From an uncultured Pedobacter sp. (GTDB lineage: Bacteria > Bacteroidota > Bacteroidia > Sphingobacteriales > Sphingobacteriaceae): DNA of 29,205 nucleotides. The translations under genes and the position numbers were made by a program. Below the pieces are notes generated by a model. The model did no database searches, was not told the DNA's origin, and saw only the letters and a program-made list of their open reading frames with translations. The DNA lies in the NCBI RefSeq assembly GCF_946479715.1, contig NZ_CAMLHF010000050.1, positions 1 through 29,205 on the forward strand, written 5' to 3'. Positions 1 to 29,205 of the stretch are shown here, piece after piece. Position 1 is the first letter of the stretch. Each line of letters starts with the position of its first letter.

Positions 1-300
1 CAAGGTGGTGCAAGTGGTCACTACAAACAATGGGTTGAAGCCGCTATTGCCGGTAATGGCAAGCAGGAAGTAAGTTCTCCTTTTGAAATTGCAGGCCCGC
101 TTACAGAAGCCTTATTAATGGCAAATCTTGCCATACGTGGTGTTGATGTTCAACGTAAAAACAGTGAAGGAAAAATCTCTTATCCTGGCCGTAATATCAA
201 ATTACTTTGGGATAATGACCTAATGAAGGTTACTAACCTTGATGATGTGAACCAATATGTAAAACGTGAGTATCGCAAAGGCTGGACTTTGGGCGCATAA
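1..300 (+). CDS. Gfo/Idh/MocA family oxidoreductase, C-terminal part
   Basis: The frame is open from base 1 to the TAA at 298-300, giving about 99 residues, so the gene starts outside the window; the internal ATG at 118 is not a start. The visible tail contains HYKQWVEAAIAG, then PFEIAGPLTEALLMANLAIR and PGRNIKLLWDNDLMKVTN, the pattern at the C-terminus of Bacteroidota NAD(P)-dependent Gfo/Idh/MocA dehydrogenases. These oxidise or reduce a sugar hydroxyl. The nucleotide-binding half and any signal peptide cannot be seen. It lies 28 bases upstream of a DUF1080 gene on the same strand, which suggests it forms or reduces the 3-keto sugar handled next door. The family call is from motif memory; the substrate is inferred. 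Confidence 0.75.
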   Translation, partial: QGGASGHYKQWVEAAIAGNGKQEVSSPFEIAGPLTEALLMANLAIRGVDVQRKNSEGKISYPGRNIKLLWDNDLMKVTNLDDVNQYVKREYRKGWTLGA

Positions 301-328
301 AACATAAAGAACAATTTTAAACCACATA

Positions 329-1021
329 ATGAAAAAATACATTTTCTCTGCGCTGATCTTAACAACAATAATGAGCTGCAGTAGTACAAAAAGTCAAAAA
401 GGCACAAAAGGATTCACCAAACTATTTAATGGTGAATCCACTGCCGGATGGCATACATATGGAAAAACAACCGCCGGTAGTAAATGGAAAGTAGAAGATG
501 GAACACTCCACTTTGATCCAAATGGCCAAAATGACGGTGGAGGTGATTTAGTGACAGATAAGGAATACAGCAATTTCCATTTAAAACTGGAATGGAAAGT
601 AGCTCCTAAAGCTAACAGCGGTATTATTTTCTACGTACACGAAGACCCGAAATATGGTGCTACATACAGTACAGGTTTAGAAATGCAGGTGCTGGATAAC
701 GATGGTCATCCGGACGGAAAGATAACTAAGCACAGAGCGGGAGATTTGTATGATCTTGTTAAAAGTAACTCTGAACCGGTGAAACCTGTTGGAGAATGGA
801 ATACAGCTGAAGTAATTAGCAACAATGGAGCCCTCGAATTAAGATTAAATGGTGTTAAAGTAGTAACTACTACACTTTGGGATGAAAACTGGAAAAATCT
901 TGTTTCAAAAAGCAAATTTGCTGGCTGGGAAGGATTTGGAACTTTCAAGTCAGGTAAAATAGCTCTTCAGGATCATGGAGATGCTGTTTGGTACCGTAAC
1001 ATTATGATTAAAGAACTATAA
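329..1021 (+). CDS. DUF1080 (3-keto-disaccharide hydrolase type) lipoprotein
   Basis: This 230-residue protein has a lipoprotein-type signal (hydrophobic residues 6-15, lipobox IMSC with Cys17). No acidic export signal follows the cysteine, so surface display is not indicated. The body is a single DUF1080 jelly-roll domain. It starts with KLFNGESTAGWHTYGK and contains the LEWKVAPKANSGIIFYVHED segment and the end motif IALQDHGDAVWYRNIMIKEL. Members of this family act on 3-keto-glycosides, cleaving the glycosidic bond after C3 oxidation. The neighbours (oxidoreductase before, transporter and two TIM-barrel proteins after) fit that role. The family is clear; the exact substrate and whether the reaction is hydrolysis or elimination are not visible. 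Confidence 0.85.
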   Translation: MKKYIFSALILTTIMSCSSTKSQKGTKGFTKLFNGESTAGWHTYGKTTAGSKWKVEDGTLHFDPNGQNDGGGDLVTDKEYSNFHLKLEWKVAPKANSGIIFYVHEDPKYGATYSTGLEMQVLDNDGHPDGKITKHRAGDLYDLVKSNSEPVKPVGEWNTAEVISNNGALELRLNGVKVVTTTLWDENWKNLVSKSKFAGWEGFGTFKSGKIALQDHGDAVWYRNIMIKEL

Positions 1022-1053
1022 TTTAACTTTTAAAGAATAACGAAAACCCGAAT

Positions 1054-2295
1054 ATGAATACGACTAACCGTGTTAAATTATCAATCATGATGTTCCTGGA
1101 ATTTTTTATCTGGGGATCATGGTTTGTTACCTTAGGTACTTTTCTGGACAAAAACCTTTCTGCCTCAGGTTCAGAAACTGCTGCTGTTTTTTCAACCCAA
1201 TCATGGGGAGCCATAGTTGCCCCTTTTATTATCGGCTTAATTGCAGATAGATTTTTCAATGCAGAAAAAATCCTTGGTGTTTTACACCTTCTTGGCGCTG
1301 CTTTGATGTATCAAATGTATACTGCGGCAGATATATCTGTTTTTTATCCATACGTATTAGGCTATATGATTCTTTATATGCCAACACTTGCTTTAGTAAA
1401 TTCAGTATCCTTTAACCAAATGAAAGATCCGGAGAAAGAATTCTCTCCTATCAGGATTTGGGGAACTATCGGTTGGATTACAGCTGGACTAATCATCAGT
1501 TATGTATTCATTTGGGATTCACCAGAGGCCCTGTCTGCAGGTTTATTAAAAAATACTTTCCTTATGGCTGGTATTGCTTCATTAGGTTTAGGTTTATTTA
1601 GTTTCACACTACCTAAAACGCCACCAAAAGTAGCTGCCGGTGAAAAAGTAAAGATCGGTGATATTTTAGGCCTTGATGCTTTGAAGCTATTAAAGGATAA
1701 AAACTTTGCTATATTCTTTGTTTCTGCTATTCTAATTTGTATCCCTCTGGCATTCTATTATCAAAATGCTCACCCTTTCTTATCTAATATTGGTGTTGAA
1801 GGGCCTACAGGTAAAATGGCAATAGGACAAATTTCAGAAGCGTTATTTTTACTATTGATTCCTTTTTTCTTCAAAAAATATGGATTCAAGAAAACCATCC
1901 TTGTCGGTATGCTTGCGTGGTCTGTTAGGTACTTATTGTTTGCCTACGGAAATGCAGGAGAACTTAGCTTTATGATTCTGATTGGTATTGCATTACATGG
2001 TATTTGTTATGATTTCTTCTTTGTATCAGGACAGATCTACACCAATTCAAAAGCTGGTGAAAGATATAAAAGTGCTGCTCAGGGATTAATTACGCTAGCT
2101 ACATATGGTGTGGGTATGCTTATTGGATTTGAAGTTGCGGGATGGATTACAGACACTTACAAAGGTGCCAATGGTGCTGCCGACTGGAAAATGGTATGGC
2201 TGATCCCATCTGGTATTGCATTTGTAGTTTTCCTATTATTTGCATTAACTTTCAATGATAAAAAGAAAATTGAAGACGAAGCAATTGCCCATTAA
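1054..2295 (+). CDS. NupG-type MFS permease (nucleoside/sugar:H+ symporter)
   Basis: The 413-residue protein has about twelve hydrophobic segments and the N-terminus typical of the nucleoside:H+ symporter branch of the major facilitator superfamily (MMFLEFFIWGSWFVTLGTFL, residues 12-31). The motif PIRIWGTIGWITAGL follows at about residue 130. Length matches the family (about 410-420). Bacteroidota often carry such NupG-like permeases in sugar-catabolic clusters, so the true cargo here may be a keto-sugar or monosaccharide rather than a nucleoside. It starts 32 bases after the DUF1080 gene and is followed after 38 bases by a TIM-barrel gene, consistent with one transcript. Location is the inner membrane. 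Confidence 0.8.
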   Translation: MNTTNRVKLSIMMFLEFFIWGSWFVTLGTFLDKNLSASGSETAAVFSTQSWGAIVAPFIIGLIADRFFNAEKILGVLHLLGAALMYQMYTAADISVFYPYVLGYMILYMPTLALVNSVSFNQMKDPEKEFSPIRIWGTIGWITAGLIISYVFIWDSPEALSAGLLKNTFLMAGIASLGLGLFSFTLPKTPPKVAAGEKVKIGDILGLDALKLLKDKNFAIFFVSAILICIPLAFYYQNAHPFLSNIGVEGPTGKMAIGQISEALFLLLIPFFFKKYGFKKTILVGMLAWSVRYLLFAYGNAGELSFMILIGIALHGICYDFFFVSGQIYTNSKAGERYKSAAQGLITLATYGVGMLIGFEVAGWITDTYKGANGAADWKMVWLIPSGIAFVVFLLFALTFNDKKKIEDEAIAH

Positions 2296-2333
2296 TCTAT
2301 TTAAACCAAATCAAAATTTAGATATTTAAAAAA

Positions 2334-3215
2334 ATGGAATCAGAATTAAGCAGAAGATCTGCACTGAAAAATATCGTTGCCGGAACCGCCGCTTTAGGTG
2401 TTTCTGCAGCTTTGCCCGCTTTTGCTCTTGAGCCATATAAGTCAACTATGTTAAAAGGAAATGTAAATCATTCTGTTTGCCGTTGGTGCTTTGGAAGCAT
2501 AGATCTTGATACTTTATGTATTGAGGCAAAAAAAATTGGTATTAAAGCAATAGACCTTGTTGGTCCTAATGATTGGGCTACTTTAAAAAAACATGGCTTA
2601 TACTCTTCAATGTGCAATGGTGCAGAAATCAACATACCTGATGGCTGGAATGACCCTAAATTTCATGCAACACTGATTAAAAATTATTCGGAAATGATTC
2701 CGAAAGTTGCTGAAGCTGGCTACAAGCAATTGATCTGCTTTAGTGGAAACCGTAGAGGTAAAGACGACGAGACAGGGTTGAAAAACTGTGTTGAGGGCTT
2801 AAAACAAATACTTCCAATTGCTGAAAAGCATAATGTAGTTGTGGTTATGGAGCTGCTTAACAGCAAAGTTGACCACGGAGATTACCAGTGCGACAATACT
2901 CCATGGGGTGTTGAACTATGCAAAAGGCTAGGCTCAGAAAACTTTAAATTGCTTTATGACATCTACCACATGCAGATTGATGAAGGAAATGTAATCAGTA
3001 CGATAAGGAAGAACCATCAATACATTTCCCATTATCATACTGCTGGCGTACCGGGAAGAAATGAGCTTGATGATACGCAGGAACTATTTTATCCTGCAGT
3101 TATTAAAGCTATTGTAGCAACTGGTTTCAAAGGATACCTTGCTCAGGAGTTTATTCCTAAGAATAAAGATGGCATAAAATCATTACAAGAAGCAGTAAAT
3201 ATTTGTGACGTATAA
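2334..3215 (+). CDS. Exported hydroxypyruvate isomerase-like TIM-barrel protein
   Basis: The 293-residue protein begins with a twin-arginine-type signal (SRRSALKNIVAGTAALG, residues 6-22, ending at about A29-F30-A31). The rest matches the Hyi-like sugar isomerase fold. Probable metal ligands are Glu173 (VVMELLN), Asp209 (LLYDIYHMQ), His235 (HYHTAGVPGR) and Glu272 (YLAQEF). The conserved NSKVDH and PGRNE strings are also present. E. coli Hyi interconverts hydroxypyruvate and tartronate semialdehyde, but exported Bacteroidota homologues near DUF1080 and Gfo/Idh genes more probably act on keto-sugars as isomerases, epimerases or hydratases. It probably shares a transcript with the permease upstream and the second TIM-barrel protein downstream. 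Confidence 0.8.
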   Translation: MESELSRRSALKNIVAGTAALGVSAALPAFALEPYKSTMLKGNVNHSVCRWCFGSIDLDTLCIEAKKIGIKAIDLVGPNDWATLKKHGLYSSMCNGAEINIPDGWNDPKFHATLIKNYSEMIPKVAEAGYKQLICFSGNRRGKDDETGLKNCVEGLKQILPIAEKHNVVVVMELLNSKVDHGDYQCDNTPWGVELCKRLGSENFKLLYDIYHMQIDEGNVISTIRKNHQYISHYHTAGVPGRNELDDTQELFYPAVIKAIVATGFKGYLAQEFIPKNKDGIKSLQEAVNICDV

Positions 3216-21031: not shown

Positions 21032-21070
21032 AAAAAGAGGGAGCCTGAAAATATCAGACTCCCTCTTTTT
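21032..21070. terminator. Bidirectional terminator between GH30 and bacilliredoxin genes
   Basis: AAAAAGAGGGAGCCTGA (21032-21048) pairs with TCAGACTCCCTCTTTTT (21054-21070) apart from one C-A mismatch, around a five-base loop. A-runs on the left and T-runs on the right let it work for both converging genes. Confidence 0.92.
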
Positions 21071-25750: not shown

Positions 25751-25945
25751 AAAGGCGTCATTTGGTTCCTTAAATATATTAATTTTCAGAAGACAAATGA
25801 TTTTATGTGATGCCTAGCCTCCATTTTTAACAATAATTAACTTTAAAACCATGAAATAAAAATATCTACCCTGTTAACTTGTTTGTTTCACCCGAACCTA
25901 TATATATTAGTCAAAACAAAATATGTATGTAACAGACTAATATTA

Positions 25946-25953
25946 TATTTTTG
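25946..25953 (+). promoter_or_regulatory. Possible -7 box upstream of the structured element
   Basis: TATTTTTG (25946-25953) fits TAnnTTTG exactly. The -33 position holds only TATG (25922-25925), 20 bases upstream. Initiation near 25960 would place the whole hairpin cluster in the transcript. Confidence 0.35.
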
Positions 25954-25959
25954 CGAAAT

Positions 25960-26135
25960 CTTCAAAATATTTGAAGCATTTAGCACTAGGAATCTCGTCT
26001 TTGAAACGTAGGAATTTTAAACGACACGAGAGGTAAGTGTAAAAGTGCTCACGCTGAAAGCGTGGGCTCTGCTTATCTGTGTCAAGGCCTCCTACGGCCT
26101 CAAAGACAGTGAGTGGAGTTCCACGCTTTTTGCGT
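25960..26135 (+). ncRNA. Candidate structured RNA or hairpin-rich dispersed element
   Basis: A composite stem-loop is formed by AGGTAAG (26031-26037) with CTTATCT (26072-26078), enclosing GCTCACGC (26047-26054) with GCGTGGGC (26060-26067). Further hairpins are CTTCAAA/TTTGAAG (25960-25976), TCTCGT/ACGAGA (25993-26031), AGGCC/GGCCT (26085-26100) and GTGG/CCAC (26113-26124). T5 lies at 26127-26131 after the last one, like a weak terminator. G-T pairs at 26033/26076 and 26049/26065 would be A-C mismatches on the other strand, which favours a plus-strand RNA. GCGTGG (26060-26065) could also pair with CCACGC (26121-26126), giving an alternative fold. I recognise no known RNA class; a non-autonomous mobile element is an equal possibility. 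Confidence 0.45.
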
Positions 26136-26254
26136 TAGAGAGATTTAAAATCCCCCACTTTCTGATTCCATATAATATCAGCCATGATCATTAAATATGG
26201 AGGTACGCATAACAATTCTTTACGCACTAATCCTTTGCCCACCAGATTGAGCAT
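26135..26254 (-). pseudogene. Short orphan reading frame, possible gene remnant
   Basis: On the minus strand an ATG at 26254 opens 39 codons to the TAA at 26137-26135, beginning MLNLVGKGLVRKELLCVPPY and ending NQKVGDFKSL. The frame extends upstream to a TTG at 26293 (adding TLCKPSISHKDFYT-like residues) before an in-frame stop. Composition (Val, Leu, Ile, Lys, aromatic residues) looks protein-like rather than random, but I recognise no family. It abuts the hairpin element at its 3' end and the 11-bp repeats at its 5' end, so it could be the tail of a lost mobile-element gene or a genuine small protein. Confidence 0.25.
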
Positions 26255-26284
26255 GGTGTAGAAATCTTTGTGAGAAATTGAAGG

Positions 26285-26328
26285 TTTACACAATGTTTAT
26301 ACAATGCTTACACAATTATTACACATTG
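26285..26328. repeat. Four 11-bp tandem repeats, consensus nTTACACAATG
   Basis: The units are TTTACACAATG (26285-26295), TTTATACAATG (26296-26306), CTTACACAATT (26307-26317) and ATTACACATTG (26318-26328). They are exactly in register with no spacer. The period is close to one helical turn, as seen for arrays of protein-binding sites. Confidence 0.8.
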
Positions 26329-26338
26329 CATATGCAAT
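26325..26338. repeat. 14-bp perfect palindrome
   Basis: ATTGCATATGCAAT (26325-26338) is a perfect palindrome that overlaps the end of the last 11-bp repeat. It could be a dimeric operator, but no regulator gene is adjacent. Confidence 0.6.
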
Positions 26339-26469
26339 TGTGAATTGTTTAAATCATGTATAAGAACTGCATCATAAAACCTCAGGCTCGATATTAACTA
26401 TTCCATACTAAAAAAACGAATCAAATTATCGTAATGGCTGCGCTTTGCCTAAAAATTAAGCACTAAAAA

Positions 26470-26919
26470 ATGAAAATATCCAAACCAACCTTCGTAATGG
26501 CCACAATATGTTTAAACTTTAGTTATGGACCATCCAAAGCAGAATCACCAATACATAATCAGTTCCAACTCTATCGATATAGTTTTTTAGAATTTAAGTC
26601 TGGCCATACACCAAGCCACCGGGTCAAAAAACACAGCAGGGGTAAAACCATTACTGTTATTAACTACACGATTGAACAACTCTTCGCCATAGCCTATGGA
26701 GCAGGAACTTCCATTAACCAGGAACAGACTATTATTGATGTAATAGATCGTAAAAAGCTGCAGGAAATGAGATGCTACAAACTATTCGTACCACAACAGC
26801 AAATTGATAATTTCTACAGCATTATGCAGCAAAACCTGAATATGGAATTTTCTGAATATAAAATAAAAATAGAGCCTATTGGTAATGAAAAATACATGAT
26901 CATAACAGATCAACGATAG
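26470..26919 (+). CDS. Small exported protein resembling the TIGR03435/DUF3738-type domain
   Basis: The 149-residue protein has a plausible signal peptide (1-24, cleavage near SKA-E). The body, ITVINYTIEQLFAIAYG (about 61-77), IIDVIDRKKL (88-97) and CYKLFVPQQQIDNFYSIMQQ (102-121), then a YKIKIEPI ending, resembles from memory the domain of Bacteroidota TIGR03435-type proteins. There it is often fused to a TlpA-like thioredoxin domain. No thioredoxin part or CxxC is present here, so it is either a stand-alone form or a shortened relative. It lies between the hairpin-rich spacer and ahcY, with no co-directional neighbour closer than 79 bases. Function unknown. Confidence 0.55.
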   Translation: MKISKPTFVMATICLNFSYGPSKAESPIHNQFQLYRYSFLEFKSGHTPSHRVKKHSRGKTITVINYTIEQLFAIAYGAGTSINQEQTIIDVIDRKKLQEMRCYKLFVPQQQIDNFYSIMQQNLNMEFSEYKIKIEPIGNEKYMIITDQR

Positions 26920-26998: not shown

Positions 26999-28315
26999 AT
27001 GTCATCAGTAGAGACAACTTACGTTCCTTACAAAGTTAAGGACATTTCACTGGCAGAATGGGGCCGCAAAGAAATTGAACTGGCAGAAGCAGAAATGCCT
27101 GGTTTAATGTCATTACGCGAAGAATTTGGTCCTTCTCAACCATTAAAAGGCGCACGCATTGCAGGCTGCCTTCACATGACCATCCAAACTGCAGTTTTAA
27201 TTGAAACACTAGTTGCATTAGGTGCTGAAGTTACCTGGTCATCTTGTAATATATTTTCAACTCAGGATCATGCTGCTGCTGCTATTGCTGCTGCAGGTAT
27301 TCAGGTATATGCCTGGAAAGGTTTAGATGAAGCTAGCTTTGACTGGTGCATCGAGCAAACTTTACATTTCGGCCCTGAGCGTCAGCCATTAAACATGATC
27401 TTAGATGATGGTGGCGACTTAACCAATATGGTTTTCGATAAATTCCCTGAGCTTATCGCTAACATCAAAGGTTTATCTGAAGAAACTACTACCGGTGTTC
27501 ACCGCTTATATGAGCGCATGAAAAACGGAACATTGCATTTACCTGCAATCAACGTAAACGATTCAGTTACCAAATCTAAATTTGACAACAAATACGGTTG
27601 TCGTGAATCATTAGTAGATGCAATCCGTCGTGCTACTGATATCATGATGGCTGGTAAAGTAGCTGTTGTTGCAGGTTACGGTGATGTTGGTAAAGGTTCT
27701 GCTGAATCTTTAAGCTCACAAGGTGTACGTGTAATCGTTTCTGAAATTGACCCGATCTGTGCGTTACAAGCTGCAATGGAAGGTTATGAAGTTAAGAAAT
27801 TTGCTACCGCAGTTAAGGAAGCTGATATTATTGTAACTACAACCGGCAACTGCGATATCGTTCGTGCTGAGCATTTCAAAAGCATGAAAGATAAAGCGAT
27901 CGTTTGTAACATTGGTCACTTTGATAACGAAATTGATGTTGCCTGGTTAAACAAAAACTATGGCGCTACTAAAGTAGAGATCAAACCTCAGGTTGATAAA
28001 TATACTATTGATGGAAAAGACATCATTCTGTTGGCCGAAGGTCGTTTAGTAAACTTAGGCTGTGCAACTGGTCACCCAAGTTTTGTAATGTCTAATTCAT
28101 TCACTAACCAAACTTTGGCTCAATTAGAATTATGGATCAATACAGATCAGTATGAGAACAAAGTTTATGTGTTGCCTAAGCATTTGGACGAAAAAGTAGC
28201 TCGTTTACACCTGGCTAAAATCGGTGTTGAACTTGATGTTTTAGATGCACATCAGGCAGAATACATTGGTGTTCCGGTTGAAGGTCCATTTAAACCAGAT
28301 ACTTACAGATACTAA
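26999..28315 (+). CDS. ahcY: Adenosylhomocysteinase (S-adenosylhomocysteine hydrolase)
   Basis: The 438-residue cytosolic enzyme reversibly splits S-adenosylhomocysteine to adenosine and homocysteine, clearing the product of methyltransferases. Typical strings are present throughout: [16 protein letters not shown] near residue 56, [26 protein letters not shown], the NAD-binding [13 protein letters not shown] near 220, [33 protein letters not shown] and the C-terminal KPDTYRY needed for the neighbouring active site. Length and termini are complete. It is framed by its own promoter and a very strong terminator, so it is a single-gene unit, probably highly expressed. Confidence 0.98.
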
Positions 28316-28330
28316 TCACTCGATATATAT

Positions 28331-28368
28331 AAAAAGGGGGAAATTACATTAGTAATTTCCCCCTTTTT
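28331..28368. terminator. Strong bidirectional terminator after ahcY
   Basis: AAAAAGGGGGAAATTAC (28331-28347) and GTAATTTCCCCCTTTTT (28352-28368) form a perfect 17-bp stem with the four-base loop ATTA. The A- and T-runs at the two ends serve both ahcY and the converging deacetylase-like gene. Confidence 0.95.
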
Positions 28369-28385
28369 ATTATCAGGCATATCCA

Positions 28386-29158
28386 TTATTTCTGTTGAAA
28401 CTCATCTTCAACACTTTCTCTCAAATCATACATCATCCATTGTTTGCCTTGAATGTCTTTTTGCTTATTCTTAAGGAGTTTAATAAAATCCTGAACCCCC
28501 AATGGTTCATTTCCATTTCCATGAATTAAAACTATACTCCCTGAGTTGGCAGGCTGACCTTTTGCAAGCCATGCATCACTCCCAACAGGAATAATTCCAT
28601 AAGAAAGTACACGTTTTACCACTTCTGTATCTGATACAAGCCCCGGAAAACGAAAGAAAACAGAGGGTAACATTCCGTGTTGTAACATGGCCAATTCGGT
28701 GCCCAATACTTCAAAATTCAAATCTGTACCAGGCTCCAATAAAAAATTAGTTTTAAGAGGAGCCTTAGAACTTACATGATGATTGTAAGAATGGTTTATC
28801 CACGTAACCTTTATATCGTTTGATTTCTCAAGCTCTTTAAGCCAATTCAAATCGTTGGAATGCGTAAGCATCCATCGGCCGGTAATTGATATTGCAATTG
28901 GAACAGGCTTCTCCGTTTTCTGAAATTCTGAAATGAGTGAAGTAAAGATAATTCTATCGAGCGCTTTATGTGAGGGGCACAAATCAATTGTTAAAGTTAT
29001 TCCCTTTTCCTTTTGGAAACCATGTATAATTCCTGCATCCTGTAAGCTACTAGACAACTGCCTTGCCGATGAAACTGTCTTAGCATAGGGTGTATTTCCA
29101 AAATAAGTAAGTGCTTCCTCTAGTTCCATTTCTTTCACTGTAACTGTGGCGGCTGGAA
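28386..29158 (-). CDS. Polysaccharide deacetylase-like (NodB/CE4-type) protein, N-terminus missing
   Basis: About 256 residues of genuine sequence are visible, ending at TAA (28388-28386). The 5' end is lost because the contig runs into adapter at 29159. Motifs in order resemble a NodB barrel: LTIDLCPSHKALDR in the place of TFDDG (Asp kept, second Asp replaced), WINHSYNHH for the metal-binding HSxxH, FFRFPG for RxPG, and GSIVLIHGNGN for the final LxH. The pattern suggests a divergent carbohydrate esterase acting outside the cytoplasm, but the altered first motif leaves activity uncertain. Any start codon upstream of 29158 is adapter-derived and must not be used. Confidence 0.72.
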
Positions 29159-29205
29159 AGATCGGAAGAGCACACGTCTGAACTCCAGTCACTACCACAG
29201 ATCTC
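29159..29205 (+). other. Illumina TruSeq adapter and index (non-biological)
   Basis: Bases 29159-29192 are the 34-base TruSeq read-1 adapter (begins AGATCGGAAGAGC, ends CCAGTCAC). 29193-29200 (TACCACAG) fits the 8-base index, and 29201-29205 (ATCTC) the start of the next constant segment. Translated on the minus strand it yields the well-known artefact peptide VVTGVQTCALPI. Confidence 0.98.

Follow-up and report, generated by a model that had tools for sequence, protein, structure and literature searches.

An Illumina TruSeq adapter at the end of a Pedobacter-like contig, joined in frame to a truncated gene

The window, by which we mean the whole 29,205-nucleotide stretch analysed (contig NZ_CAMLHF010000050.1 of an uncultured Pedobacter sp.), ends on its forward strand with ...GGCTGGAA, followed directly by AGATCGGAAGAGCACACGTCTGAACTCCAGTCAC, TACCACAG and ATCTC. 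The last three elements fill positions 29159-29205. The first, at 29159..29192 (+), is the i7-side Illumina TruSeq adapter, 34 nt long including the A of AGATCGG and exact at 34/34 positions. It is followed at 29193..29200 (+) by the library index TACCACAG, exactly 8 nt separating the adapter from ATCTC. The contig's last bases, ATCTC at 29201..29205 (+), we take to be the first five of the P7 flow-cell tail, a tail also observed in full in two other records. All 47 bases fall in the order adapter, index, tail, exactly as the preliminary description had stated.

Next to it, on the minus strand, lies the genomic part of a gene named 'polysaccharide deacetylase' by the sources, recognized by homology at 28386..29158 and cut at its 5' end. 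Its frame stays open through the terminal stretch: the chimeric open frame at 28386..29204 (-) encodes 272 aa, with adapter, index and tail making up all or part of each of its first 16 codons. Its translation reads RSVVVTGVQTCALPI, then F, then PAATVTV...; the in-frame peptide VVTGVQTCALPI ahead of the genuine gene is translated adapter and index. In the list of open reading frames the same frame also appears as 28386..29198 (-), with a GTG at 29196..29198 (-), inside the index, giving MVVTGVQTCALPI... The false start pointed out in the preliminary description thus holds for gene callers that demand a start codon; for others the frame is merely open at the contig edge.

Given the base composition of the window, the 39 fixed bases of adapter and tail would arise by chance at a single position with a probability near 10^-24; over both strands of the window the expectation is about 6e-20 (10^-19.2). 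Four adapter strings were tested, for the TruSeq i7 side, the TruSeq i5 side and two Nextera forms; none of their 12-mers occurs in the window outside 29159-29205. The adapter sits on one of the two contig ends, points outward and reaches the last base, 29205, a placement that takes the window to be the whole contig, as given in the preliminary description. The opposite end agrees with two relatives, G003 and G001, from base 1. Allowing up to 2 mismatches, the 33-nt adapter core was found in none of 59 genomes (36 of the nearest genus and 23 of the class). TruSeq contamination shows itself as an exact adapter with an index of 6 or 8 nt and ATCTC behind it, placed outward at a contig end and absent from relatives, and the terminal stretch has each of these properties. 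The index itself, TACCACAG, could be matched to no kit or other record: it follows the adapter in none of the 240 adapter-bearing loci among the matches listed, is found in no viral contig and, searched as a whole word, has no mention in the literature searched.

The junction was located by comparison with the two relatives. Across 27000-29158 the window is 97.2% identical to G003 and 94.5% to G001, and both alignments end at 29158; the DNA of the truncated gene agrees with both up to that same base. In direct alignment, GGAA is followed by TTATTGATGTA in both relatives and by AGATCGG in the window, hence 29158 is the last genomic base. Since both relatives continue as GGAATTATT where the window has GGAAAGATC, the A at 29159 belongs to the adapter side. 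The trimming point proposed beforehand, 29158, coincides exactly with the end of homology to G003 and G001, both of which carry different, coding DNA beyond it.

These comparisons bear on the idea that the terminal 47 bases belong to the chromosome itself and resemble an adapter by chance or through acquisition. The one point in its favour is their presence in the contig. Against this, the chance expectation is the vanishing one given above, the adapter is missing from 59/59 genomes, and the stretch coincides with the very end of the contig, where the relatives, from which the window diverges after 29158, keep coding sequence. We have rejected this reading and hold it to be extremely improbable. 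A wider chimera is also argued against, because colinearity with G001 spans window 1-29158, interrupted where three pieces of the window (about 215, 102 and 1,075 bases) have no match.

G003, for its part, is not colinear throughout: its synteny breaks near window position 21050, the match on its contig C19 beginning at window 21052, and window 1-3000 maps to a different contig, C4. The window stretch 25850-26919 (about 1.07 kb) has no match at the corresponding place in G001 or G003, which hold just 170-180 bp or so there. Inside it lies a 149-aa ORF (26470-26919) without a Pfam match; its matches occur in 4 of 41 genomes, the best (64% identity) in G003.

How much of the gene is missing can be read from its relatives. 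The 256 genomic residues encoded by 28386-29158 are identical to residues 66-321 of the database protein P0002. In the 19 database homologues closest to it (P0002-P0020, 313-324 aa), 57, 64, 65 or 68 residues precede the cut; this part contains a leader resembling a signal peptide together with the greater part of a small beta domain, and 17 aligned homologues run across the cut point with sequence of their own. In G003 the gene lies within a 327-codon open frame (L263:13189-14172), directly behind another reading frame (L263:11528-13195). Overall, the genomic part of the gene is matched in 24 of the 59 genomes, every one of which belongs to the set of 36 from the nearest genus. The true gene start had been described as unknown. 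That stands for this contig, from which it is absent; for the family, the homologous sequences make the start known, except for the choice between neighbouring start codons.

Pfam returned no family for the truncated protein (P0001) up to E 1 and none for five homologues up to E 10, leaving all six family members scanned without a match; NCBIfam likewise gave none for the truncated protein. Sequence-profile comparison with solved structures yielded no match, and a Foldseek search with the structural model gave 482 matches at E <= 10 and none at E <= 0.001. In alignment A3, consisting of 32 sequences hand-picked from the 120 homologues listed, D123, H187, H191 and H277 are conserved, and 32/32 sequences have Leu at residue 124. 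The invariants of the family are DLCPS, HxxxH, RFPG and a late His, with a possible SH3-like N-terminal domain in the same alignment. We assume that the TFDD and H(S/T)xxH motifs of the Asp-His-His metal triad correspond to these residues, equating them by eye; Leu 124 would then follow the conserved Asp of an apparent TFDD motif, where the CE4 motif has its second Asp. In the lack of a Pfam match, of a Foldseek match at E <= 0.001 and in this Leu the family differs from CE4/NodB-fold polysaccharide deacetylases. It may represent a CE4 branch not yet described whose metal site is altered, or else a pseudoenzyme.

We are virtually certain that 29159-29205 is an untrimmed Illumina TruSeq adapter, presumably acquired by read-through of short inserts, and that the minus-strand gene is genuine but cut at its 5' end. 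With library fragments shorter than the read length, reads would leave the insert at 29158, cross the ligated adapter and then the 8-nt sample index, and run into the P7 tail. Left untrimmed, such reads could have led the assembler to extend the contig by the adapter and halt there. Judging by the closest homologues, the gene at 28386-29158 (-) has lost its first 57-68 codons. That the adapter arrived by read-through, and that it made the contig break, is what we infer; no evidence against an untrimmed adapter was found in the analysis.

The cause of the break admits a variant of this explanation, in which the contig ended through a repeat or a coverage gap and the adapter is just the tail of the last reads. 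Assemblies do break for other reasons, and no adapter is present at the opposite end of this contig. Speaking against a repeat, the 1 kb that follows the break in G003 had no match other than itself and the corresponding G001 sequence in the five stretches examined from the two genomes. We regard the variant as conceivable, though somewhat doubtful. Whichever way the contig came to end, the terminal 47 bases are an artefact of an already known kind and hold no biology. For 28386-29205 the consequence is a matter of clean-up: the contig should be trimmed at 29158 and the gene marked 5'-partial.

Contamination of this kind has been described on a large scale. Among 15,657 MGnify species assemblies, 1,110 showed adapter enrichment at p < 0.01; forward adapters were concentrated at contig ends, and in 327 of these 1,110 assemblies trimming and reassembly raised the N50 (Moeller et al. 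2024, BMC Genomics, PMC11536531). Our case shares with theirs the 12-base core AGATCGGAAGAG, its forward extension and the position of a forward adapter at a contig end; it differs in concerning one contig of a Pedobacter-like genome instead of MGnify species genomes. Chimeric proteins are not discussed in the portions of that study consulted. Spurious proteins arising from contaminated contigs, as well as NCBI's VecScreen filter, are mentioned by Steinegger and Salzberg (2020, PMC7218494). As in their report, automatic annotation turns contaminant DNA into database proteins; there the contaminant is DNA of another organism, whereas here a synthetic adapter is fused to a fragment of a real gene. 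Such an error can hide the leader and N-terminal domain that a protein really has, so that it looks leaderless and analyses of localisation and domains are misled.

The preliminary description had warned that any database protein with the adapter-derived N-terminus is an artefact. For the window's own chimeric protein the warning found no object, as QTCALPI occurs in none of the 120 listed homologues (the best 120 of 2,745). It proved apt for other proteins. Queried at the loose limit of E <= 10, the adapter peptide retrieved 7,931 of 8,000 scored candidates, and VTGVQTCALPI is present in 120/120 of the best of these 7,931 matches, within the first 26 residues in 93 and further in for 27. By eye, we counted about 40 of the 120 with precomputed Pfam domains, which belong to various families. 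A single source, labelled 'src', supplies all 120, and they therefore say little about other databases. Peptides like ...RHTRxxxVTGVQTCALPI are very probably a spurious common motif on thousands of unrelated database proteins. If so, the motif could mislead motif discovery and the prediction of start sites and signal peptides in the collections concerned. Since the peptide recurs on numerous entries in at least one protein collection, screening for translated adapter frames would offer an inexpensive quality control. The strings VQTCALPI, DRKSTRLNSSH, WSSDVCSSDL and RSEEHTSELQS have no mention in the literature searched. In addition, the residues RHTRCALVTGVQTCALPI, with the same index-derived letters, are common to 91 of the 120 listed proteins (P0122-P0241), suggesting that a few libraries may account for most of them.

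The same adapter recurs in other contigs. Its 33-nt core was found in at least 120 stretches of genome_contigs and at least 120 of viral_contigs, counts that are lower bounds from samples that are not random. Among the matches listed, 104/123 and 105/121, respectively, are at most 100 nt away from the end of the locus toward which they point, and the core is preceded by A in 122/123 and 116/121. Where at least 13 nt follow, 68/74 and 70/83 of the listed matches continue with an index of 6 or 8 nt that leads into ATCTC. As exceptions, 3/123 and 1/121 of those listed have a distance to the locus end that exceeds 300 nt.

The 34-nt adapter was matched in 2 of 5,426 E. coli genomes; for adapters inside complete hybrid assemblies, no account was found in the literature searched. 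In E. coli NZ_AP046542.1, labelled complete, the TruSeq adapter lies inside the chromosome (L261:1501-1566, match at 2224712-2224745), where adapter, 8-nt index, P7 tail and then a poly-A run stand between cheY and cheB. A second complete E. coli genome, NZ_AP040990.1, also has a chromosomal adapter (L262:1501-1565, match at 4842174-4842206). This stretch, made of an adapter one base short, an index, the P7 tail and poly-A, directly adjoins bglG, annotated there as a pseudogene without its N-terminus; this pseudogene call may itself be an adapter artefact.
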